The notes under the pieces are model-generated. The model worked only from the letters and a program-made list of their open reading frames with translations, was not told the origin of the DNA and did not search any database. From the NCBI RefSeq assembly GCF_019469265.1, contig NZ_CP048268.1, forward strand, positions 2,001,001-2,065,000: DNA of 64,000 nt, read 5' to 3'. The position numbers were made by a program, and so were the translations under genes. Positions 5,620 to 15,859 of this stretch are shown here, one piece after another (position 1 is the first letter of the stretch; each line of letters begins with the position of its first letter). This DNA comes from Lactobacillus panisapium (GTDB lineage Bacteria; Bacillota; Bacilli; Lactobacillales; Lactobacillaceae).

Positions 5620-5989
5620 TTAACGCTTATCTAAAATTTGATATGCTCTAGATAGTAAGTTATCCAAATCTTTGTCACTAACATGGCCAACAATTCTACC
5701 ATGTCGACCGAAAAAATCATAATTAGGCATGAAAAAAGTAATTATACTACCAGATACTCCACTATTAATGTCAGCAAAATGATAGTATAGCTCACCCTTA
5801 TCTTTATTAAGGCCATGTGAGAGAGGCATACAGATAACTAATTCCGTTTTTTGATTATATTGCATTATTTGATATAACTATTACTGGTCTCTGAATATTG
5901 CCTGATTGGAAACTATGCCCACCTTCTTCTCATCCTGCATGAGGTTCAGCATCTATCCAAATAATATCTCCTTGTTTGGGCGCTACCAC
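5620..5989 (-). pseudogene. mazF/pemK-type toxin gene, broken by a stop and a frameshift
   Basis: The reading frame opens with GTG at 5989, overlapping the antitoxin stop by 7 bases and preceded by AAGGAG. It gives VAPKQGDIIWIDAEPHAG, a typical MazF/PemK start (PKxGDIxW). The next codon is TGA where the family normally has Arg (GREEGGH), consistent with a CGA to TGA change. After EEGGHSFQSGNIQRPVIVISN the frame shifts by one base, and the rest (QYNQKTELVICMPLSHG ... LLSRAYQILDKR) continues to a stop at 5620. With two lesions the RNase toxin should be inactive, while the cognate antitoxin frame is intact. Confidence 0.85.
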
Positions 5990-6240
5990 GATATGTTCTC
6001 CTTACCAACCTGCATTGTATCAGGATTGCCTACTTTTTCAATTTCTTTTTTAAAGTCAATATCATCATATTCCCCATTAAACCACGGATTAGAGCCAATA
6101 GCCTTATAGATTAAAGTGCCATTATTTTCTTGGGTCAATTCAAATCGTTGACCCAGTTTAACATCTGCCTTACTCGGAATCGTGAGAACAGCAGAATTAC
6201 CAACTTTTTTAACAACAAAGCTACCTAATTTCTTTTCCAT
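5983..6240 (-). CDS. MazE/PemI-type antitoxin
   Basis: An 85-residue protein with the AbrB/MazE-type swapped-hairpin start: GSFVVKKVGNSAVLTIP then a KLGQRFEL-like segment. The second half (NPWFNGEYDD, then an acidic stretch) fits a toxin-binding tail. The ATG at 6240 is preferred to the one at 6249 because of the spacing to GAGATGAT. In intact systems this protein neutralises MazF and represses its own operon. The adjacent toxin frame is broken, so the gene is now an orphan antitoxin. Its reading frame remains undamaged, which may mean recent toxin loss or retention for protection against related toxins. Confidence 0.8.
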   Translation of the reverse strand: MEKKLGSFVVKKVGNSAVLTIPSKADVKLGQRFELTQENNGTLIYKAIGSNPWFNGEYDDIDFKKEIEKVGNPDTMQVGKENISW

Positions 6241-6506
6241 TAATATCATCTCATTAGTTCATTTTATTATAGGTATACACGATTTCTAAAAAGATTGCAA
6301 TTATATCTTTACAAAGTCTAAGCAATATATTATTAGCAATTATTTAACATAATTTAATAGATGTTATAGTAATTTTACACAAGATTATTTAAACATCTCT
6401 CTAATTTAATTATGATATTATATGCTTTGTTAGGTATTATATTTTTTATCTTAAATTATCTCTAATTATATATTGATACTTTTCGTGATCTAAAAGTTAT
6501 CATGGT

Positions 6507-6770
6507 CTAATCGTTTTCTTCATAATGTGTTTTACAAGCTACAATAATTAAATGACCTTTTTTTGTAGTATAAACTAAACGATCTTGATTGTTAATTCTC
6601 CTTGACCAACCATTCTGATACTTCAAACGCTCCGGCTTGCCCAACCCATTTGCTAAACCATCCCGCTGGATTGATTTAATTAACTTATTTATTCGCTTTA
6701 AGGGCTTTCGATCTTGACTTTGCCATGAAAGATATTCATCCCATGCCTTATCTAAAAATTCAACTGACAT
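6507..6770 (-). CDS. yoeB: YoeB-family toxin (ribosome-dependent mRNA endonuclease)
   Basis: An 87-residue protein matching YoeB/Txe toxins along its whole length: AWDEYLSWQSQDRK near the start, KRINKLIKSIQRDG, GKPERLK, GWSRRI, DRLVY and a final ACKTHY. The residues that correspond to the E. coli catalytic set are present (Glu47, Arg64, His82, Tyr83). YoeB binds the 70S ribosome and cuts mRNA in the A site. It lies 2 bases downstream of its antitoxin gene on the minus strand, the usual antitoxin-first order. It is the one complete toxin-antitoxin pair in the window. Confidence 0.92.
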   Translation of the reverse strand: MSVEFLDKAWDEYLSWQSQDRKPLKRINKLIKSIQRDGLANGLGKPERLKYQNGWSRRINNQDRLVYTTKKGHLIIVACKTHYEEND

Positions 6771-6772
6771 AA

Positions 6773-7048
6773 TTAATTTTCATTATCTAACAGCTGATGG
6801 GAATGCACATCACGATAACTTTCAACCTCTTTAAAACGCTTATTAAGTTCAGTTTGATTTGTTTCACTATAAAATGGATCTTTGACATCAAAGGGTAATC
6901 CACCTTCAGATATACTCTTTTTGATAAAAATATTAACTGCTGTGGAAAGGTTCAGACCTAAACTATCAAACAATTCAGCTGCTCGCTTTTTATCAGATGA
7001 ACTTACCTTAATTGAAATAGAAACTTTCTTTTTTACAGTATCTGACAT
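6773..7048 (-). CDS. RelB/DinJ-family antitoxin
   Basis: A 91-residue ribbon-helix-helix protein: VKKKVSISIKVSSSDKKRAAELFDSLGLNLSTAVNIFIKKS contains the beta strand and two helices typical of RelB/DinJ, followed by GGLPFDV and an acidic, flexible C-terminal tail that would wrap the toxin. It is expected to repress the shared promoter and neutralise YoeB. The ATG at 7048 follows GAGGTGATTAGTG. A DinJ-like antitoxin with a YoeB toxin is a mixed but common pairing. Confidence 0.9.
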   Translation of the reverse strand: MSDTVKKKVSISIKVSSSDKKRAAELFDSLGLNLSTAVNIFIKKSISEGGLPFDVKDPFYSETNQTELNKRFKEVESYRDVHSHQLLDNEN

Positions 7049-7154
7049 CACTAATCACCTCATAGAGTTTGTATCACACAGTGCATACATTGTATAGTCA
7101 TTAGATTACTATCAACAGGGAAGCAATTCAATACTTACTAAAAAGTAATATAAA

Positions 7155-7187
7155 AATCCTCCAAATTGGGCTACAATTCGGAGGATA
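7155..7187 (-). terminator. Terminator of the galactitol-type PTS operon
   Basis: ATCCTCC(G)AATTG pairs with CAATT(T)GGAGGAT. On the minus strand it is followed by T residues, and it sits about 50 bases after the hexuloisomerase stop codon. Confidence 0.8.
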
Positions 7188-7235: not shown

Positions 7236-7775
7236 TTATTCGATGTCTGCATGATTTTTACGCATTGAAGTTTCATCTATACCAGTAATTTTCATCAATT
7301 TAAGCGAAATTGCATCAAATAATAATAATGACATCTGTTCAAATAATGAACCCATTGGTTGCAGAGAAGTAGTTTGTGAAACTTTAGATTGCGCAGCAAT
7401 CTTAACTACTGTATCTGCTACCTTAGCCAAGGGAGAATGCACATCAGTAGTAATTATTACTACCTTAACGCCATTACTAACAGCAACTTTAGCTTGTGCT
7501 AACAATTGCATTGAGCATCCCGAAGCTGAATTAATTATTAACAAATCGCCCGGTTGAGTGTGGGGCTCACTAATCTCACCAACCACACTAATAGTGAAAC
7601 CTAATTGCATCAACCGATTAGCAAACGCTCGAATCATTAATCCTGAGCGGCCCGCACCAGAAAGATAAATGCGCTTAGCATTACGGATTAACCGGATCAA
7701 TTCACTAACTTCCTTACTAGCTAAAGGATCCGGAACATGTGCTAACTCATCTAAAATTACTGCTAACTCACTCAA
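7236..7775 (-). CDS. hxlB: 6-phospho-3-hexuloisomerase-like SIS-domain protein
   Basis: A 179-residue single SIS-domain protein that looks like HxlB/PHI, which interconverts 3-hexulose 6-phosphate and fructose 6-phosphate. Visible marks: SGAGRSGLMIRAFANRLMQLG (about 40-60), INSASGCS (about 80-87), IITT, PMGSLFEQ and the typical end NHADIE. It starts with TTG at 7775 within a TTGA overlap with the upstream EIIA stop, preceded by AGGAAA, so translation is coupled. It is the last gene of the PTS operon. No hexulose-6-phosphate synthase is present, so its substrate is probably a product of the PTS sugar and not formaldehyde-derived. Confidence 0.82.
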   Translation of the reverse strand: MSELAVILDELAHVPDPLASKEVSELIRLIRNAKRIYLSGAGRSGLMIRAFANRLMQLGFTISVVGEISEPHTQPGDLLIINSASGCSMQLLAQAKVAVSNGVKVVIITTDVHSPLAKVADTVVKIAAQSKVSQTTSLQPMGSLFEQMSLLLFDAISLKLMKITGIDETSMRKNHADIE

Positions 7776-8242
7776 TTTGTCATTTCCTTTCCTGTCAATT
7801 TATCCGTTAAATTAGCAGCTAAATTAGCTAATGGTAGATTAGCCAAATCGTGGATAAATTCTTCTGATTGGAATAACTTCATTAAATTGCGAAGCATTGT
7901 CAGATGCTGCTCACCTTTAGCCAAAGCCAAGTTAAACAAAAACTTACATTCAACCTGCTTTTTAGCATCTTCCATTAGTCCGAAACTTACAGGCTGAATT
8001 AAGCGAACAAAGCTAATACTACTTTTTTTAACTAAATTTGAATCACCATGTGGAATCGCAATGCCTGTCCCATCAGCCAGCCTGAGGCCAGTGGGAAATT
8101 GCTTTTCACGATCAATACAAGCTTGTGAAAAAGCTGGGGTAATTGCATCTTTTTTCAGCATTGCCTGACCAGCAAATTTGATCGCTTCCTGATAAGTTAA
8201 AATATCTGGGGTTCCTTCATTTACAAAAATCTCAATGTTCAT
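7772..8242 (-). CDS. PTS EIIA component, galactitol/fructose type
   Basis: A 156-residue EIIA of the mannitol/fructose fold. The phosphorylated histidine is His65 in GIAIPHGD, and FLFNLALAKGEQHLTMLRNLMKLFQ is the usual C-terminal block. It would pass phosphate from HPr to the EIIB gene product encoded just upstream. It lies second from last in the operon, with a 4-base TTGA overlap to the isomerase gene. The sugar cannot be named; Gat-type systems also import sugars other than galactitol. Confidence 0.88.
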   Translation of the reverse strand: MNIEIFVNEGTPDILTYQEAIKFAGQAMLKKDAITPAFSQACIDREKQFPTGLRLADGTGIAIPHGDSNLVKKSSISFVRLIQPVSFGLMEDAKKQVECKFLFNLALAKGEQHLTMLRNLMKLFQSEEFIHDLANLPLANLAANLTDKLTGKEMTN

Positions 8243-8252
8243 TGCATGCCCT

Positions 8253-8537
8253 TTATTTAGTTAATTCATCTTTAATTTGCTCTAAAACTTCGTCTTCATT
8301 TATCCCAGTTAACAATGCTGATCCAACAATTACTGGCGTTTTTACGCCTGGACGATCAAGCTTGGTTGAAGAAACGATTAAATCCTTACTATTAAAAGTA
8401 TCATCCGTACAGTCCATGAGTGAAGCTTTATCAAGTTCTGCCTGTACTCCCTGTTCATCTAAATAATCTTTTAATCCGGCCAACATAATTGATGATGAGG
8501 CAATGCCATTACCACACACTACTAAAACTTTTTTCAT
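8253..8537 (-). CDS. PTS EIIB component, galactitol type
   Basis: A 94-residue EIIB with the phospho-Cys loop VVCGNGIASSSIM; Cys8 is the phosphorylated residue. Length and fold type fit GatB. It lies between the EIIA and EIIC genes with short spacers (10 and 32 bases). Confidence 0.9.
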   Translation of the reverse strand: MKKVLVVCGNGIASSSIMLAGLKDYLDEQGVQAELDKASLMDCTDDTFNSKDLIVSSTKLDRPGVKTPVIVGSALLTGINEDEVLEQIKDELTK

Positions 8538-8569
8538 TTTTATTCCTCTTTTCGTTATCTTATTACCTA

Positions 8570-9940
8570 TTAATTAGCGGTAGAATTATCAATTTCAATT
8601 TGTTTTCGTTCCCGCTTTTTTAGCCAGTAACCGAATAAAATTACGATGGCTGCAACTGCTAAATAACCAAAAATTCCTACGTGTGAAACTGCAGCAAATA
8701 ATCCAGTTAAAGGATTTGCTGATGGGTTTAATGACGAATACATTACGCCCTTTTTTGCACCAGCACCAAATTGCTGAAATACCTGGTTTGTAGCTGGTGT
8801 CATCCAGGAAGCAATATATAATCCTCCACCAAACAAGAATACAGAAGCAAGCCAAGTTCTAATAATATTGCCTTTAAAGACTGGAACCATTGCGGCAATA
8901 AAGAAAACAAATTGGGATAAATCACCCATTGGCATAACTTTGTTACCTGGAAGAATAACTGCTAAAATCACAATAATTGGAATCAGTAATAAAGCAGGTG
9001 CAATTACCGCTGGATTACCAATAATTAAAGCAGTATCCATTCCGACAGTGATTTCACGATCTGGAAAACGTTTGACCATTTTTTTACGAACAGCATTGGA
9101 TAAAGGAACTAATCCTTCCATCATAATCGAAGTCATCTTCGGCAGTAATAGCATTACAGCTGCTAAGTACATCCCTAATTGCAGGCTGCTAATAATTGCA
9201 TGGTATGGATTGCTCCAACTATAACCAACTAGTCCCAAGCAAACCCCAATTAAAAAACCAACCATTGTCGGATCACCGAAAATACCAAATTTTTTCTGTA
9301 TACTTTCAGCCGTAGCATTCCAGTGACGGACACCAGGAATGTGATCAAAAAGCCAGTTAAACGGGTACGCAAAGAATAAATAAGTATTAGCAACAGGGTG
9401 CGAAATTGAGACCCCTTTTGGCAAATTGTAAAATTCATTATTATTTTTGGCACCCAAATCGGCTCCAATTAAGGCAATCATGTGAAAGATTGCTGCAGTC
9501 AATACACCATAGAGAAAATTGCCTGAATAGGCATAGACAATTGCACCCATTGATGCGTTTTGGTGTAAGTTGAAAACATCCACATTAACACAATCTGTTA
9601 GTCGCAAAACTAACATAATTATATTAGTGGCAACACAAAGTGGAATGATAATGGCACCCATACTAGAGCCAAATCCCATTACTGCTGTTGCGGCACCACC
9701 AACATCAATTGCAGATAGCGAGGAGCCAGTCTTAGCTGATAAGCCCTTGATTGCTGGTTGCATCTTTTCGAGCATGAATGTTACTACCATGCTTAAAGCG
9801 ATAAAACCAATCCCAACTTTCATTGCTGATTGGGTCGATTCTGCCCAAGACCGCCCAAGCAGTTTCATTAATAGTAAGAAAATTACGGGAATAAAAATAA
9901 AATTCCCAATATCATTAATAAACTGAGTAATAATCGCCAT
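8570..9940 (-). CDS. PTS EIIC component, galactitol type (sugar permease)
   Basis: A polytopic membrane protein of 456 residues with about ten hydrophobic segments, of GatC type (FNLHQNASMGAIVYAYSG and GFLIGVCLGLVGYS are visible). A TTG at 9949 is in frame and overlaps the upstream stop, but the ATG at 9940 has better spacing to GAGG. It forms the membrane channel of the Gat-type EII complex and brings in a polyol or hexose with phosphorylation. The gene follows the LacB-like isomerase with almost no spacer. Confidence 0.88.
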   Translation of the reverse strand: MAIITQFINDIGNFIFIPVIFLLLMKLLGRSWAESTQSAMKVGIGFIALSMVVTFMLEKMQPAIKGLSAKTGSSLSAIDVGGAATAVMGFGSSMGAIIIPLCVATNIIMLVLRLTDCVNVDVFNLHQNASMGAIVYAYSGNFLYGVLTAAIFHMIALIGADLGAKNNNEFYNLPKGVSISHPVANTYLFFAYPFNWLFDHIPGVRHWNATAESIQKKFGIFGDPTMVGFLIGVCLGLVGYSWSNPYHAIISSLQLGMYLAAVMLLLPKMTSIMMEGLVPLSNAVRKKMVKRFPDREITVGMDTALIIGNPAVIAPALLLIPIIVILAVILPGNKVMPMGDLSQFVFFIAAMVPVFKGNIIRTWLASVFLFGGGLYIASWMTPATNQVFQQFGAGAKKGVMYSSLNPSANPLTGLFAAVSHVGIFGYLAVAAIVILFGYWLKKRERKQIEIDNSTAN

Positions 9941-9945
9941 CAGAA

Positions 9946-10473
9946 TCAAGCCTCACAATCGTCTTCAAAACCCATATTCCATGCTACAAAATCCGGTTTA
10001 GACAATAGCCGATTATCATCAGCTTTCGCTTCCAATAGGTTCTTTTTTGAATTTTCACGAGCAGTTCTAAAATCAAACGGCTCATCCAAAAAGGCATCCA
10101 GAATCATTTCATGGTAAGGTAAACCATTAACTCTCATCCCTAAGCCAATAATTTGAACGTTGTTACTAAGCCGCGCCCGTTTAGCTGAATACGGGTTAGT
10201 TACGGCAGTTGCTCTAATTCCCCAATGCTTATTGGCTTGCATTGTAAATCCAATACCTGTCCCGCAAATATAAATTCCTAAGCGACATTGATCTCGCTGA
10301 ATTACTTCAGCCATTTCATCTGCTAATTTAGCATAAGTGTTTTTGCCATCTTGAGGTACTTTAACAGGATCAAAAACTATTTCATATCCCTTAGTATTCA
10401 CTAAGTAATCCTTCAGTTCCTCTTTTCGGGTAAACCCAATATCATCACAAGCAATTGCAATTTTCTTTTTCAT
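9946..10473 (-). CDS. RpiB/LacAB-family sugar-phosphate isomerase (LacB-like)
   Basis: A 175-residue isomerase with the family's catalytic loop ICGTGIGFTMQANK (about 69-82) and NPYSAKRARLSNNVQIIGLGMRV. A C-terminal extension after residue 140 (ending in an acidic tail) makes it closer in length to LacB (about 171) than to RpiB (about 150). The HND motif of RpiB reads SNN here, also as in LacB-type chains. LacB normally works with LacA, and no lacA is present. It is the first gene of the operon, ribosome site GAAAGGATG. It probably converts an aldose 6-phosphate to a ketose 6-phosphate; the true substrate is open. Confidence 0.78.
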   Translation of the reverse strand: MKKKIAIACDDIGFTRKEELKDYLVNTKGYEIVFDPVKVPQDGKNTYAKLADEMAEVIQRDQCRLGIYICGTGIGFTMQANKHWGIRATAVTNPYSAKRARLSNNVQIIGLGMRVNGLPYHEMILDAFLDEPFDFRTARENSKKNLLEAKADDNRLLSKPDFVAWNMGFEDDCEA

Positions 10474-10501
10474 CTAATCATCCTTTCACAAAACCAACTA
10501 A

Positions 10502-10603
10502 ATAATCCGCTTTCATTGATTAAAACCAATTATAAACTTTGTTTTTATTGTTTTCAATTGCTTTTTTATTGTTTTTTAGTCAAAAAACCAATTTTAAAAT
10601 TGG
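10502..10603. promoter_or_regulatory. Divergent control region: DeoR-type direct repeats and a palindrome
   Basis: The 13-mer TTTTTATTGTTTT occurs at 10542-10554 and 10563-10575, exactly 21 bases (two helical turns) apart. A perfect palindrome CCAATTTTAAAATTGG lies at 10588-10603. DeoR proteins often bind direct repeats on one DNA face. A partial cre match (TGAAAGCGGATTAT on the minus strand, 10502-10515) adjoins the PTS operon start. Confidence 0.6.
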
Positions 10604-10701: not shown

Positions 10702-11457
10702 ATGAAGTTAATGGCCGATCGCCGCAATAATATCTTGGAAGAAGTCTTAAAAAAAGGGACTGTTTCCGTCCATGACTTAGCGCAAAAATTTGGCGTTTCT
10801 TATGAGACAATTCGGAAGGATTTAACTTATTTAGAAAGCCAAAAGCTGATCATCAAAGGTCATGGTGGAGCAACTTCAATTCAAAATAACGTTGAAAACC
10901 CCTTTAATGTTCGTTCAGAAGAAAATATCGAGTTAAAACAACAATTGGCACAATCTGCTATGTCCTTAATTCCAAATGGAGCAACTGTTATGCTAGGAAC
11001 AGGCAGTACAGTACTGGAACTAGCTAAACTGCTAATTATGCGTGATGATTTAAAAATATTCACCAACTCTTTGCCTGTTGCCACTTATCTATTAAGTTCA
11101 AACAGTGAGTGTTATTTACTTGGTGGTAAATTGCGCTCAAAGAGTTCCTCTGTTTACGGCGGTTGGACAGAGAGTCTGCTTAAGCAAATTCAAGTTAGCA
11201 TTTGCTTTTTAGGATCTGATGGTTTTTATAATTTTGCGGGCCCAACCAGTCCATCATATTCAGATGCTTCAATTGATGCCGTGATCTTGCAGCAAGCACG
11301 GAAAAAATATATCTTAGCCGATAAGACTAAGTTCAAACGCACTAGTCTCTATCAAATCACCCAGTGGAGTAATATCACTGGCTTAGTTACCAATAAAAAT
11401 GCCGAAGAAGATCTGTTAGCTAAAGTTAAACAGCAAACGGTAGTAATCACAGCCTAA
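10702..11457 (+). CDS. DeoR-family transcriptional regulator
   Basis: A 251-residue regulator with the classic DeoR plan: ADRRNNILEEVLKKGTVSVHDLAQKFGVSYETIRKDL (winged helix, residues 4-40) followed by IIKGHGGAT and a sugar-phosphate sensing DeoRC domain (ATVMLGTGSTVLELAKLL, YLLGGKLR, FLGSDGF, ILADKTKF). The ATG at 10702 with GAGG 8 bases upstream is chosen over the much longer open frame, whose first 60 residues look like translated intergenic DNA. It is divergent from the Gat-type PTS operon and most likely controls it in response to a phosphorylated intermediate. Confidence 0.9.
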   Translation: MKLMADRRNNILEEVLKKGTVSVHDLAQKFGVSYETIRKDLTYLESQKLIIKGHGGATSIQNNVENPFNVRSEENIELKQQLAQSAMSLIPNGATVMLGTGSTVLELAKLLIMRDDLKIFTNSLPVATYLLSSNSECYLLGGKLRSKSSSVYGGWTESLLKQIQVSICFLGSDGFYNFAGPTSPSYSDASIDAVILQQARKKYILADKTKFKRTSLYQITQWSNITGLVTNKNAEEDLLAKVKQQTVVITA

Positions 11458-11550: not shown

Positions 11551-12711
11551 TTACTTTTTTGCCTGATAGCGTGACTTACCGTTCAAGTAAGTTTCGCTCA
11601 ATGTCATATCAGGGTTCAAAACGATAAAGTCAGCAGGCTTATCAGGAGCAATTGAACCACATTTATCTAAGATATTTGCGCTTTTAGCTGGTACATATGA
11701 CGCCATCATAATTGCTTCTTCTGGGGTAGCAGCATTCCAGTCAACCACATTCTTAATAGCGACATTTAACTGCAAGATACTACCGGCAAGGTTATCGCCG
11801 TCCTTAAGACGGGCCATGCCATCTTTGACGTAAACTGGCAATTCACCAAGCATATAGTCACCATCTGGCATCATTCCCGCTTCCATACAGTCAGTGATTA
11901 AACAAATATGTTCTGCACCCTTAATCTTAATTAATGACCGAACCAATTCTTTTTTCACGTGGTGCCCATCACAAATCAATTCATCAGTAACATTATGCAA
12001 GTCCATTGCTGCATTTGAAATTGATGAGTCATGGTGTGACGGATCAGGCATGCCATTGAAAGTGTGCGTAAACATGGTTGCACCTGCTTCAACACCAGCT
12101 TTAGCTTGTGCGTAAGTTGCACTTGAATGGCCCAAGGAAACGACAACGCCCTCTTTAACAACAGTACGAATGAATTCCTTCGCACCCTTTCTTTCAGGTG
12201 CAAGGGAAATTTTGTTAAGTAAACCTTCTGATTGATCACGCCAGTCATTAAATTGCTTAATGCTTGGATCTAGCAAGTACTTCGGGTTCTCAGCACCAGC
12301 ATGTTCTGCAGTAAAGTATGGACCTTCAAAGTGCAGCCCCTGAATCTTAGCACCAGTTTCTTCACCCTTACGGGCACCGAACATTTGACAAATTCTAGTT
12401 AAAGTATTTTCGTCCGCAGTATAAGTAGTAGGCAACCAGCTAGTAACGCCTGAGCGCAAAAAGCCTTCAGACAAACGGTTAATGCCATCCCATTCGCTTA
12501 CCATTACATCTTCTTTTAAAGAACCGTGAACATGCGTATCAACCAATCCGGGTGCAATCCATTTACCAGGATAATCAACAATCTTACCTGTTGGGGTTTC
12601 GTTTTCAGGGTAGTAAAAACCAAACTTGCCATCATCTTGAACTTCAAGGTAACCGCCATCTTCAGTTACATTTTCAAGAAAAAACTTGTCAGCATGAATA
12701 TAATACGTCAT
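11551..12711 (-). CDS. nagA: N-acetylglucosamine-6-phosphate deacetylase
   Basis: A 386-residue amidohydrolase that removes acetate from GlcNAc-6-phosphate in amino-sugar breakdown and wall recycling. Metal and catalytic landmarks are in place: GLVDTHVHG, LHFEGPYF, SLGHSSATY, FTHTFNGM and the catalytic Asp in LITDCMEAG. Length is normal for the family. The start is ATG with AAAGG upstream. It is monocistronic here, with the terminator at 11493-11524, and a GntR/NagR-like operator at 12774-12789 upstream suggests control by amino-sugar phosphates. Confidence 0.95.
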   Translation of the reverse strand: MTYYIHADKFFLENVTEDGGYLEVQDDGKFGFYYPENETPTGKIVDYPGKWIAPGLVDTHVHGSLKEDVMVSEWDGINRLSEGFLRSGVTSWLPTTYTADENTLTRICQMFGARKGEETGAKIQGLHFEGPYFTAEHAGAENPKYLLDPSIKQFNDWRDQSEGLLNKISLAPERKGAKEFIRTVVKEGVVVSLGHSSATYAQAKAGVEAGATMFTHTFNGMPDPSHHDSSISNAAMDLHNVTDELICDGHHVKKELVRSLIKIKGAEHICLITDCMEAGMMPDGDYMLGELPVYVKDGMARLKDGDNLAGSILQLNVAIKNVVDWNAATPEEAIMMASYVPAKSANILDKCGSIAPDKPADFIVLNPDMTLSETYLNGKSRYQAKK

Positions 12712-12865: not shown

Positions 12866-15859
12866 ATGATACAAGACACGCAAATAAATAGACATCAATT
12901 AGGGGCATTGACCGGTGCAAGTAAGTGCGATAACTATTATGAGTTGCACTTTGCAACTGGTGAAGTGGCGCACTTCTACATTTTGGCCGATGGAATTTTT
13001 CGTCTAATCCTTGATCCCGAACAAAATTTCACTGAACAGCCAGCTTCATTTATTCAGCTAGCTAAATTTGATAACAATGCTTTTGAGCGTTCACAGGTAC
13101 GGGCAACTAACGACTCATTAATTATTCACTCGGGTAATTACCAAGTTATTTTTTGGCAAAAGCCGGCTATTATGAGTATCTTCGATGAAACTTTGCACCG
13201 AACGAGAATGTCGCAATCTAGCCCATTAGAGCTTGGTACTGAGCAAACTAGCGAATTTTTAGTCCAAAATAAAAACGAATTTTACTTTGGTGGCGGTTTA
13301 CAAAACGGCTATTTTAGTCACAAGGGCCGGAAAATTCAAATTAAGCATGACCAGATCACAGGCGACGGCGGGGTTGTCACGCAAGTACCATTCTTCTGGT
13401 CCAACGCAGGCTATGGTGAATTACGTAATACTGTTCAAAGCGGTACATATGATTTTGGGCAGAAAAATCACAGCGTCACTACGTTGACACACCAAGATCA
13501 ACTTTTTGACAATTTTTACCTGGTGGGCAACACCCCGCAGGAACTTCTTGCTAAATTTTATCAGCTAACCGGAAAACCCGTCCTATTGCCTAAATATATG
13601 CTTGGCTTAGGACATCTAGGCAATTTTTGTACCACTCTTTGGCAGCCTAGTGCAGCATCAGTTCGCAACGCAACAAAAATTAACAATAATTTTTATCTAC
13701 GGACGCGCAATGAAAATTCTGCCTCGGGAAAAGCATCACTTAACGGTGAAGAAAATTATCACTTTTCAGCAAGGGCAATGATTGACCGTTATAAAGCCAT
13801 GCACATCCCATTAAGCTGGTTTGTACCCAATTACGGCGTTCAAGCAACTAATGAGCAAGCTCTCGCCTTTTTTAACGATTATGCGTTAAATCAGGGCGTT
13901 CATCCCGGCTTATGGCATGAAGAAGACGCAACTTTACCAGCAAAAACTGCCTTTACTTACAGTAATAACCCCAACTTAACTGCTTCGGATACTGAGAAGC
14001 TGAAAACAGAACTGCAACGTAAGCGGCCACTGGTCTTAAGTAACTCCGGCTTTGCCGGCATGCAAAAAGACGCCGCCATAATCTATGGTGATGTTGGGGG
14101 TAATTGGGAGAGTATCGCCACTCAAGTTGCCGGTTTAGTAGGTTCTAATTTATCAGGACAACCACTTGCTGGAGCGGCAGTTGACGGCCTTTTAGGCGGT
14201 GGCAATGCGCAAATTAATGTTCGCGACTTCGAATGGAAAGCATTCACACCCCTTCTTTTCAACATTGATGACCAAGGTGATTTTAGCAAGACACCGTTTG
14301 CTTACAATCGTAAAATTACGGAAATTAACCGCGCCTATTTGCAGTTGCACAGCCGTCTGAAAAATTATTTATACACGCTTAATGCACAGGCACGCGAAGG
14401 CAATCTTATCTTGCAGCCACTATTTATTGCTTTTCCAGATGAACGGACTAATTACACCGAACAATTCGGTACCGAGTTCATGCTAGGCAACAATTTGTTA
14501 ATTGCACCTATTACTAATGGCCGCGAAGATGAAGAAGGCAATTCCCGCAAAGACAATTTATACCTGCCGGGTAAGCACACGATGTGGATTGATCTTTTTA
14601 CCGGCGAAAAATATGCTGGTGGTCGTGTTTACAATAACTTAACCTACCCAACCTGGCATTTGCCAGTCTTTGTCCGTGGTGGCAGTATCTTTGATTTTGG
14701 CAAGCGTGACTATGTCATTTATCCGCAAGGAAACAGCCAGGCAGAAATTTACGACGATGATGGCTTAACCGATTTTGAACATAACTATTGCAAGACTCAG
14801 GTTACCAGCAAGCTTGATGAGGAAAAGTTGACAGTTACTATTAATCCGGTTAAAGGCGAATACCCTGATCTGGAAGCAGAGCAAGCAACCAATTTAACTT
14901 TATTATGCGATTCTTATCCTGATAATGTTATTGTTAAAATAAATGACCAAATTGTTCCGCTCCAAGTCTACGGCTCGCTTGATGCCTTTAACCTAGCACA
15001 CGAAGGGATTTTTTATAATACTAACTATTCCTTAGCTGAATTTGATCAATATCATGACCAAAAGCAAAAGGCCCTCCAAATTAAGCTTGCTAGCCGTGAA
15101 ATTGCAACTACCAAAATTGAAGTGACGGTGCGTAACTTTACTTACAGCAGCAAAGTCATGGTTCATTCAATTACCAGTGGGATTATTCCCTCACCGAAAC
15201 TTCCTTCAGTTGATTCCAGCAAAATCACAGCTCATTCATTTGAACTCGCTTGGTCGCAAGCTGACGAAGTTCAAGTTGAAATTAACAATATCCTGTACGA
15301 AGGAATTAAGGGTAATAGTTTTACGTTCCATGAACTGACGCCTAATACCCGCTATATCATCCGAATGCGCTATGTTGTGGGCAATCGCGTATCAGAATGG
15401 TCTGATCTTTTCGGCGTAATTACTAAGCACGCAGCCGAGGACTATGCAATTCAGGAGATTACCGTTTCCAGCAACTGCGATAGCAAGCCGCACCATCCAC
15501 TCGCATACTTGACCGACCTCAAGATGGCCAGTGAATGGCAAACTGAGCAGAGTATTGCGCCTGATAAGCCTCTGGAATTAACTTTTACCTTTAATGATAT
15601 TGAAAAGTTAAGTCGGATGACTTTTGTTCCCCGTAACATTGATCACGAAGGCGACCCAACAGATATCAGTCTTGCTGTTTCAACTGATGGTGAAAATTAC
15701 AACTTGTATGCCGAGCACCTAAAATGGCGAGCCGACAGTAAAAATAAAGTAGTTGGCTTACGTGATGTGCGGGCAAAGGCCGTTCGTCTCACCATTTATC
15801 AAAGCTCAGGACCTTTGGTTGCTGCGCGTGAAATCATTTTTTTCAGAGCTAAACGATAA
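12866..15859 (+). CDS. Large GH31-family protein with C-terminal FN3 and F5/8-type domains
   Basis: A 997-residue cytoplasmic protein (no signal peptide). Residues about 1-240 form the GH31 N-terminal beta domain (FYFGGGLQNGYFSHKG). The barrel follows, with SNSGFAGMQKDAAIIYGDV and GNW (residues about 391-415), which carries the general acid/base Asp, and the LSGQPLAGAAVDG segment. The canonical nucleophile block (WxDMNE) is not visible; between LWHEED (about 350) and the acid/base there is only an unusual linker. The C-terminus adds an FN3-like domain (about 770-860) and an F5/8C (discoidin) domain (about 862-995). It may be a divergent alpha-glucosidase or transglucosidase. It stands alone behind its own promoter. 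Confidence 0.82.
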   Translation: MIQDTQINRHQLGALTGASKCDNYYELHFATGEVAHFYILADGIFRLILDPEQNFTEQPASFIQLAKFDNNAFERSQVRATNDSLIIHSGNYQVIFWQKPAIMSIFDETLHRTRMSQSSPLELGTEQTSEFLVQNKNEFYFGGGLQNGYFSHKGRKIQIKHDQITGDGGVVTQVPFFWSNAGYGELRNTVQSGTYDFGQKNHSVTTLTHQDQLFDNFYLVGNTPQELLAKFYQLTGKPVLLPKYMLGLGHLGNFCTTLWQPSAASVRNATKINNNFYLRTRNENSASGKASLNGEENYHFSARAMIDRYKAMHIPLSWFVPNYGVQATNEQALAFFNDYALNQGVHPGLWHEEDATLPAKTAFTYSNNPNLTASDTEKLKTELQRKRPLVLSNSGFAGMQKDAAIIYGDVGGNWESIATQVAGLVGSNLSGQPLAGAAVDGLLGGGNAQINVRDFEWKAFTPLLFNIDDQGDFSKTPFAYNRKITEINRAYLQLHSRLKNYLYTLNAQAREGNLILQPLFIAFPDERTNYTEQFGTEFMLGNNLLIAPITNGREDEEGNSRKDNLYLPGKHTMWIDLFTGEKYAGGRVYNNLTYPTWHLPVFVRGGSIFDFGKRDYVIYPQGNSQAEIYDDDGLTDFEHNYCKTQVTSKLDEEKLTVTINPVKGEYPDLEAEQATNLTLLCDSYPDNVIVKINDQIVPLQVYGSLDAFNLAHEGIFYNTNYSLAEFDQYHDQKQKALQIKLASREIATTKIEVTVRNFTYSSKVMVHSITSGIIPSPKLPSVDSSKITAHSFELAWSQADEVQVEINNILYEGIKGNSFTFHELTPNTRYIIRMRYVVGNRVSEWSDLFGVITKHAAEDYAIQEITVSSNCDSKPHHPLAYLTDLKMASEWQTEQSIAPDKPLELTFTFNDIEKLSRMTFVPRNIDHEGDPTDISLAVSTDGENYNLYAEHLKWRADSKNKVVGLRDVRAKAVRLTIYQSSGPLVAAREIIFFRAKR

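Follow-up and report, generated by a model that had tools for sequence, protein, structure and literature searches.

A Gat-type PTS operon with two sugar-phosphate isomerases in Lactobacillus panisapium: a mobile cassette that may lead an uncommon hexose to fructose 6-phosphate

A five-gene operon of Lactobacillus panisapium, located in a 64 kb window (the whole stretch of 64,000 nucleotides analysed here) of the closed 2.19 Mb genome (G000:C1:2001001-2065000), combines a Gat-type phosphotransferase system (PTS) with two putative sugar-phosphate isomerases, and each of its parts recalls a described system. Like the E. coli galactitol (Gat) operon, it encodes Gat-type EIIABC in separate A, B and C genes, its IIA and IIC being nearest to galactitol models; however, GatD, GatY and GatZ (the K-12 set) are missing and two isomerases stand in their place. 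With the LacABCD lactose/galactose 6-phosphate pathway it shares a PF02502 isomerase, although as a single subfamily member rather than a LacA-LacB pair, and with neither LacC nor LacD in the operon. Its HxlB passes the family cut-off, as expected of the ribulose monophosphate HxlA/HxlB pair, but this genome has no HxlA over the cut-off and the cassette HxlB falls into a separate tree group. The E. coli D-allose pathway (RpiB/AlsE/AlsK) resembles the wider cassette system in uniting an RpiB-type isomerase with a phosphoketose epimerase, whereas the cassette has a PTS instead of an ABC transporter and kinase, HxlB is added, and the epimerases of its sister operons score as Rpe rather than AlsE. 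Finally, the available part of the work on D-arabitol use by B. methanolicus (atlABCD, PMC6685057) describes a Gat-type PTS for a non-galactitol substrate, but there with polyol-phosphate dehydrogenases, of which the present operon and its relatives (cassette A) have none. A literature search, with most subscription papers outside its reach, found no published description of the operon; in the portions available, one report lists L. pentosus alsE and hxlB in a table only (PMC9478171) and another concerns tagatose use by other means (PMC10101011).

We read the operon as probably serving the breakdown of an uncommon sugar, for which an aldohexose that belongs to the D-series at C5 is the most likely candidate. 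We propose, tentatively and as a possibility that falls short of being probable, that it serves an isomerase-based hexose route to fructose 6-phosphate in which the HxlB and Rpe-type steps are shared with sister operons. The new aspect, a PTS operon with an isomerase-only outlet, is partly supported by the evidence below. The genes, from upstream to downstream, and the sites that flank them are:

9946..10473, minus strand: sugar-phosphate isomerase of the RpiB/LacAB superfamily, separate subfamily, 175 aa (PF02502, 119.7 bits)
8570..9949, minus strand: PTS EIIC, Gat type, 459 aa (PF03611, EIIC-GAT; TIGR00827, 338.2 bits, below the cut-off of 542)
8253..8537, minus strand: PTS EIIB, 94 aa (PF02302, PTS_IIB)
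7772..8242, minus strand: PTS EIIA, fructose/galactitol type, 156 aa (PF00359, PTS_EIIA_2; top NCBIfam match galactitol IIA, below cut-off)
7236..7775, minus strand: HxlB-type SIS isomerase, PTS-linked group, 179 aa (SIS; TIGR03127, 190.5 bits, above the cut-off of 160)
10529..10557, minus strand: promoter-like site TTGAAA-17-TATAAT upstream of the isomerase gene (11/12 matches)
7156..7186, minus strand: terminator-like hairpin past the last gene (13 pairs, T-rich tail)

The first-pass annotation of this DNA had described five genes coupled by short or overlapping junctions, and this is borne out: coordinates and families match, and from the isomerase gene to hxlB the coordinates give a 4-base overlap, a 32-base gap, a 10-base gap and a 4-base overlap. 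The five genes are confirmed as one genuine operon, flanked by the promoter-like site (10557-10529) and the 13-bp terminator-like stem (7186-7156). Since the region scan yielded fewer promoter-like sites than shuffled sequence did (9 against a mean of 13.5, no excess), the promoter match is weak evidence alone; terminator-like sites were in excess in the same scan (6 against 2.7). The EIIC misses the galactitol IIC cut-off (338.2 against 542 bits), and the IIA and IIB likewise stay below those of the galactitol models. Window genes and profile scores revealed no kinase, aldolase or dehydrogenase between the operon ends or in the divergent neighbours.

The upstream isomerase had been labelled 'LacB-like', a label that we withdraw. 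The protein passes PF02502 (119.7 against 24.7 bits) and the broad RpiB/LacA/LacB model TIGR00689 (95.6 against 88.3) but no equivalog model. It scores higher with RpiB models (PRK05571, 121; TIGR01120, 102.3 bits, missing the equivalog cut-off of 138.65) than with LacB models, which give 56.9-78.4 bits against cut-offs of 234-325. LacB identity is rejected on model scores and residues, and the operon has no LacA partner. An AlphaFold model (pLDDT 93.8) is nearest to E. coli RpiB (2vvr, TM 0.79/0.93), with LacB (4lfk_B) at rank 11, and over aligned columns the protein is 29% identical to this genome's RpiB, 27% to its LacB and 24% to its LacA.

For a closer comparison we used an alignment of 113 members, made from 120 listed proteins of 131 matching ones by dropping nine shorter than 160 aa and adding two other rows. 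In RpiB, Cys66 and Thr68 are catalytic, His99 opens the ring and His10 lies on the phosphate side. By E. coli RpiB numbering, all 113 members keep Cys66, Gly67, Thr68 and Gly69, and 111 keep Asp9, with gaps in the other two. The His99 position, by contrast, is Ser in all 113, and the His10 position is Asp in 91, Asn in 15, Ser in 3, Glu in 2, Lys in 1 and a gap in 1. Arg133 and Arg137 of RpiB are unaligned; a conserved Arg139/Lys143 pair, in a part where the alignment is unsure, may stand in for them. A tail, KPxxVAWNMGF, is new and conserved in the subfamily. Judged by its sequence, the isomerase is a member of a separate RpiB/LacAB subfamily, closer to RpiB than to LacB, which would be a new one to define. 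Because the active site of this subfamily is changed, we treat the aldose-to-ketose step as an assumption. A divergent member (about 63%) occurs at L039 8032-11350, in the Tetragenococcus-type genome G659, together with a UlaA-type EIIC (by eye); the same operon holds a true HxlA (262.8 against 200) and is therefore a PTS operon with a 3-hexulose 6-phosphate synthase.

The HxlB-like label, in contrast, stands (TIGR03127, 190.5 against 160). In trees of 34 SIS proteins, and of 27 after removal of six KdsD-like rows and one other, 19 PTS-linked HxlBs split from seven HxlA-linked ones with support of 96/98 and 98/99, so that the cassette HxlB appears to belong to a PTS-linked group apart from the formaldehyde-fixing proteins. 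The cassette HxlBs of L011, L013 and L063, near copies of included rows, were left out of the trees. The Gilliamella cassette HxlB stood on the HxlA-linked side of the 98/99 branch in the 27-protein tree; we do not claim a second recruitment from the formaldehyde type in Gilliamella, since an approximately unbiased (AU) test does not reject a single PTS-linked clade (p 0.318). HxlB is over the cut-off in all eight cassette genomes searched, and in three of them it is not inside the cassette. A further HxlB setting was also seen: a shortened HxlB-like frame of 109 aa between PfkB kinase and KDPG aldolase genes (L033 4492-4821; G000:C1:341.5-341.8 kb), and a similar kinase-HUMPS-HxlB-aldolase set on a Loigolactobacillus plasmid (L071).

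A survey of the neighbourhood, as the first-pass annotation had suggested, covered 18 loci plus the window (19 in all, several closely related to one another). The order isomerase-IIC-IIB-IIA is kept in 18/19 loci and a divergent DeoR-type gene in 17/19, the exceptions L038 and L039 both lying in a Tetragenococcus-type genome. The gene after IIA is HxlB in 11 loci and a KdsD/GutQ-like SIS gene in three (L007, L038, L059); three loci have no gene there (L028, L037, L094), L022 has a shortened HxlB frame, and L039 is an odd operon with no HxlB. Two kinds of sister operon recur:

B1: IIA-IIB-IIC-Rpe-SDR-HxlB with a Gat-type PTS, in Klebsiella, E. coli, Pantoea and Enterococcus
B2: IIA-IIC-IIB-YjbQ with Rpe, HxlB and/or a KdsD-like SIS, in Enterococcus, L. 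kullabergensis and this genome

At least one of B1 and B2 lies next to cassette A in 8/19 loci (L007, L022, L024, L028, L037, L059, L062, L094), the stretch at L007 stopping before any HxlB of the sister operon could be seen; in the present genome B2 lies away from the cassette, at G000:C1:319.8-326.2 kb. Where cassette A has no intact SIS gene after IIA (L022, L028, L037, L094; L039 excluded), an intact HxlB is encoded by the operon next to it in 4/4 cases, as if neighbouring cassette and sister operon shared one HxlB. The SDR of Klebsiella is 94% identical to that of an Enterococcus; its closest solved structures are general FabG-type enzymes and indicate no substrate. From these neighbourhoods, A would be an aldose operon and B1 a polyol operon, converging before a common HxlB/Rpe stage; entry into the sister operons would be through the dehydrogenase in B1 or the YjbQ protein in B2.

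Two observations on the sister operons and their surroundings may be added here. A YjbQ-family gene is present in 5/5 B2-type Gat PTS operons read (L034, L059, L007, L037, L026), one product (L034 10735-11259) scoring 66.2 bits, just below the TIGR00149 cut-off of 67.75; since the gene recurs in all five, a sugar-phosphate role for the family is suggested. Almost every solved YjbQ relative carries the label hypothetical or uncharacterised. Upstream of the cassette in an Enterococcus raffinosus type genome (G731, L062 750-5198), genes resembling a mannose-type PTS (by eye) lie beside genes for a mannitol-dehydrogenase-type protein and a likely HAD phosphatase (the latter by eye), perhaps a further polyol entry into the same pathway.

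All eight PTS-linked epimerases, five from B1 and three from B2, are rated better by the Rpe model (206-234) than by that for AlsE (165-178, cut-off 271). Six of the eight exceed the Rpe cut-off (TIGR01163, 212.6); those of this genome (206.5) and L. kullabergensis (209.5) just miss it. E. coli AlsE, used as a control, reaches 428 with the AlsE model and still 212.4 when scored as Rpe, so that a low AlsE value sets the two kinds apart and the Rpe value does not. On these scores the PTS-linked epimerases would suit a substrate resembling ribulose, whether a pentulose 5-phosphate or a 3-ketohexose 6-phosphate, better than allulose 6-phosphate. A whole-genome search found three Rpe-family proteins in this genome, and the epimerase beside its RpiB stays below the AlsE cut-off (186.7).

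Put together, the proposed route would run as follows. The Gat-type EIIABC, from what is known of its family, would import the sugar as a 6-phosphate; the RpiB-type isomerase would shift the carbonyl from C1 to C2; HxlB would then act on the C2/C3 pair via a 3-ketohexose 6-phosphate; and an Rpe-type epimerase, from a sister operon or a housekeeping enzyme, would complete the conversion to fructose 6-phosphate. A dedicated kinase or aldolase would then be unnecessary. The first-pass annotation had arrived at a similar series of isomer shifts. Its two isomerases and the lack of a local kinase or aldolase stand, but its aldose-to-ketose step is assumed, and epimerases exist beside the cassette in other loci and elsewhere in this genome. 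Its statement that aldolase and epimerase are absent holds within the operon and fails for the genome, which encodes LacA, LacB, LacD and the three Rpe-family proteins; the annotation had named induction by galactitol together with the missing enzymes elsewhere in the genome as telling against its route, and the second half of this is what we found for the aldolase and the epimerase.

Several observations weigh against the proposed hexose route. The ring-opening His is absent in 113/113 members of the isomerase subfamily, which is odd for an aldose isomerase, and the second member at L039 has a true HxlA and a PTS of UlaA type as its partners. For the allose/altrose series HxlB would be superfluous, as one 3-epimerase suffices; for the galactose series the route would be redundant, as LacA, LacB and LacD are present. 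The Rpe score by itself is no discriminator, given the 212.4 of E. coli AlsE. The HxlB count of 8/8 comes from cassette genomes alone, a KdsD/GutQ-like SIS occupies the place of HxlB in three loci, and the fetched stretch, whose flanks differ, contains no sister operon in 11/19 loci.

A bolder version, which we put forward as speculation and think rather unlikely, would have HxlB and the Rpe-type epimerase act jointly as a 4-epimerase for ketohexose 6-phosphates. By this reasoning from chemical structures, HxlB would first turn tagatose or sorbose 6-phosphate into its 3-keto isomer by moving the C2 carbonyl to C3, the Rpe-type enzyme would invert C4, adjacent to the C3 carbonyl, and HxlB would return the carbonyl to C2 to give fructose 6-phosphate. 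The inversion is conceivable because a 3-ketohexose 6-phosphate equals ribulose or xylulose 5-phosphate plus one far-end carbon, with equal carbonyl-phosphate spacing, and it would give HxlB a use, since the protein is idle in the allose/altrose/allulose series, where a 3-epimerase alone suffices. In the galacto, talo, gulo or ido series, the RpiB-type isomerase of cassette A would be the entry point for aldoses and the B1 SDR that for polyols. If true, such sugars would reach glycolysis without a second phosphorylation or a dedicated aldolase, and isomerases plus an epimerase would be enough to make fructose 6-phosphate from rare hexoses, a conversion that would be useful for rare-sugar manufacture. 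Against this version, LacA, LacB and LacD of this genome may already deal with tagatose 6-phosphate, and the isomerase relative of the Tetragenococcus-type genome stands with HxlA and a UlaA-type PTS.

Among the rival explanations the one that survives best, though we consider it unlikely, is a pentose route: an aldopentose (D-arabinose or D-ribose) would enter through the PTS, the RpiB-type and SIS proteins would interconvert pentose 5-phosphates, and Rpe would lead them to xylulose 5-phosphate and phosphoketolase. The isomerase is indeed nearest to RpiB in scores and structure model, the sister epimerases are Rpe-like, a KdsD/GutQ-like SIS replaces or accompanies HxlB, and this genome has a phosphoketolase-family match as well as Rpe. 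Gat-type PTSs for pentitols also exist, as the accessible text on B. methanolicus arabitol use indicates (PMC6685057). The route is opposed by the presence of HxlB over the cut-off in 8/8 cassette genomes, and by the loss of His99 and change of His10, which, given the roles of these residues, argue against ribose 5-phosphate. In addition, we know of no role of HxlB with pentoses.

A little less likely, in our judgement, is entry as a ketose, in which the PTS would import a 2-ketohexose such as D-allulose, the RpiB-type isomerase would form 3-hexulose 6-phosphate and HxlB would convert this to fructose 6-phosphate. Two enzymes, HxlA and HxlB, are known to handle 3-hexulose 6-phosphate, and members of the isomerase subfamily neighbour HxlB in 11/19 loci and a true HxlA in L039 (262.8 against 200); that the ring-opening His is lost in 113/113 of them is a further point in its favour. 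However, known members of the RpiB/LacAB family act on C1/C2, and we know of no 2,3-isomerase among them. Moreover, G659 has an HxlB elsewhere, so the HxlA neighbour need not imply that product, and a single AlsE-type epimerase would achieve the same conversion.

Ordinary galactose or galactitol catabolism, with the isomerase producing tagatose 6-phosphate, a kinase and LacD elsewhere finishing the pathway and HxlB incidental, we consider improbable. In its favour, LacA, LacB and LacD of this genome exceed curated cut-offs (LacA and LacB an equivalog cut-off, LacD a subfamily cut-off, each staying below the cut-off of one or more other models), PF01791 frames of LacD size occur in 8/8 cassette genomes and the EIIC is of Gat type. 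Against this, LacA and LacB (456.8-457.7 kb) have their own regulator and Gat-type PTS (G000:C1:450-465 kb), the cassette isomerase fails the LacB models and shares no more than 24-29% identity with LacA, LacB and RpiB of this genome, and HxlB would be left purposeless. Furthermore, in a kinase search confined to the neighbourhood of LacD (471.5 kb), the one PfkB-type kinase beside LacD scored as a 1-phosphofructokinase (324 against 292) and fell short as a tagatose 6-phosphate kinase (149 against 469).

Least of all do we credit a role of HxlB in formaldehyde fixation through a ribulose monophosphate shunt, which has family membership in its favour but is very unlikely because HxlA is over the cut-off in only 2/8 cassette genomes searched and not in this one (best match 128.4 bits, below 200; the best candidate is UlaD-type, 276 against 250), while 19/20 PTS-linked HxlBs separate from the HxlA-linked ones. 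The first-pass remark that HxlB has no formaldehyde-fixation partner is thus upheld, and the preferred hexose route would give HxlB a role beyond formaldehyde metabolism.

The cassette is an accessory, mobile trait, being rare in random genome draws and yet found on plasmids and in an island across taxa. At an E-value of 1e-40 the isomerase was found in 2/397 family genomes and 4/395 order genomes (both counts including this genome) and in 3/105 genomes of the Enterococcus family, the draws overlapping; the EIIC was found at 1e-150 in 6/75 genus genomes, this one counted. The closest named relative at the locus is Lactobacillus bombicola (isomerase 89% identity). A species-genome scan gave 12 loci, of which 11 are true relatives at 69-89% identity, in Lactobacillus, Enterococcus, Gilliamella and Tetragenococcus; the twelfth, in Bacteroides, was set aside at 35%. 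The bee gut is the habitat of L. bombicola, L. kullabergensis and Gilliamella.

The isomerase is present at 60-80% identity in 39 plasmid records (Klebsiella 29, Enterobacter 9, Escherichia 1); a search of plasmids for near-identical DNA gave none. Among 5426 complete E. coli genomes, 255 match isomerase-IIC-IIB-IIA, 233 of them over at least 80% of the stretch (about 4%), all chromosomal; the sister operon matches in 231, with 223 over at least 80%. In 3/3 E. coli chromosomes read, an island with both operons lies between a tRNA-Asn gene and ldtA; in K-12, asnV and ldtA are adjacent with nothing between. The five-gene form is present on one E. coli plasmid. The cassette has spread horizontally and is also present in another phylum; this mobile trait is found in lactobacilli and enterococci, in Gilliamella, on plasmids of enterobacteria and in about 1 in 23 complete E. 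coli genomes. Because the cassette-A EIICs of five genera (Lactobacillus, Enterococcus, Gilliamella, E. coli and Tetragenococcus) are 70-86% identical to one another, they probably have one substrate in common; EIIC trees gave no pointer to it, with A, B1 and B2 each separate.

The intergenic region upstream of the operon contains three copies of a box that recurs in cassettes of this type:

10702..11457, plus strand: divergent DeoR-family regulator (PF00455 and PF08220), the conserved divergent neighbour
10584..10591, minus strand: TTGGTTTT box, predicted and likely operator of the DeoR-type regulator, conserved in DeoR-bearing intergenic regions
10522..10529, minus strand: TTGGTTTT box that touches the -10 hexamer (motif and promoter scans)
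10490..10497, minus strand: TTGGTTTT box (motif scan)

The DeoR-type frame is open from 10516, and its start at 10702 was set by comparison with L. bombicola. TTGGYTTT boxes occur on either strand in 17/17 DeoR-bearing intergenic regions, 1 to 4 apiece, against means of 0.01-0.05 in single-base shuffles of 15 of the 17 regions. The whole window has 29 such boxes, so that about 0.1 would be expected in the 225-base intergenic region, where three are found. No box was present in the 56 bases upstream of the Tetragenococcus-type cassette without DeoR, nor in 172 bases of regulatory sequence examined for the B2 operon of this genome, and no cre site in the intergenic region of four lactobacilli. 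The cassette is probably under DeoR-type control through the predicted boxes. That the same box is common to Lactobacillus, Enterococcus, Gilliamella and Enterobacteriaceae cassettes suggests that regulator, operator and genes moved together.

Beyond the regulator lie a nagA gene (11551-12711, minus strand; NagA over the TIGR00221 cut-off) and a gene (12866-15859, plus strand) for a GH31 protein of 997 aa that also carries F5/8-type and fn3 domains; its GH31 barrel covers no more than positions 200-328 of the 328-position Pfam profile. A link of these two genes to the cassette was considered and rejected: they are taken as unrelated because tblastn at 1e-5 found no relatives in 11 relative loci (L005-L015, flanks mostly 7 kb). 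Elsewhere in the genome (L051, G000:C1:272-290 kb), a UlaA-type PTS operon with a KDPG aldolase, a KdsD-like SIS and a DapA-like protein (by eye) adjoins an ascorbate-type operon, the UlaD-type protein being the only member checked by profile. On the other side of the cassette, two short frames (5620-6249, minus strand) are, by eye, candidates for a MazE-type antitoxin and a MazF-type toxin end, with no Pfam match, and genes for a YoeB-type toxin and a RelB-type antitoxin (6507-7051, minus strand) lie immediately downstream of the operon terminator.

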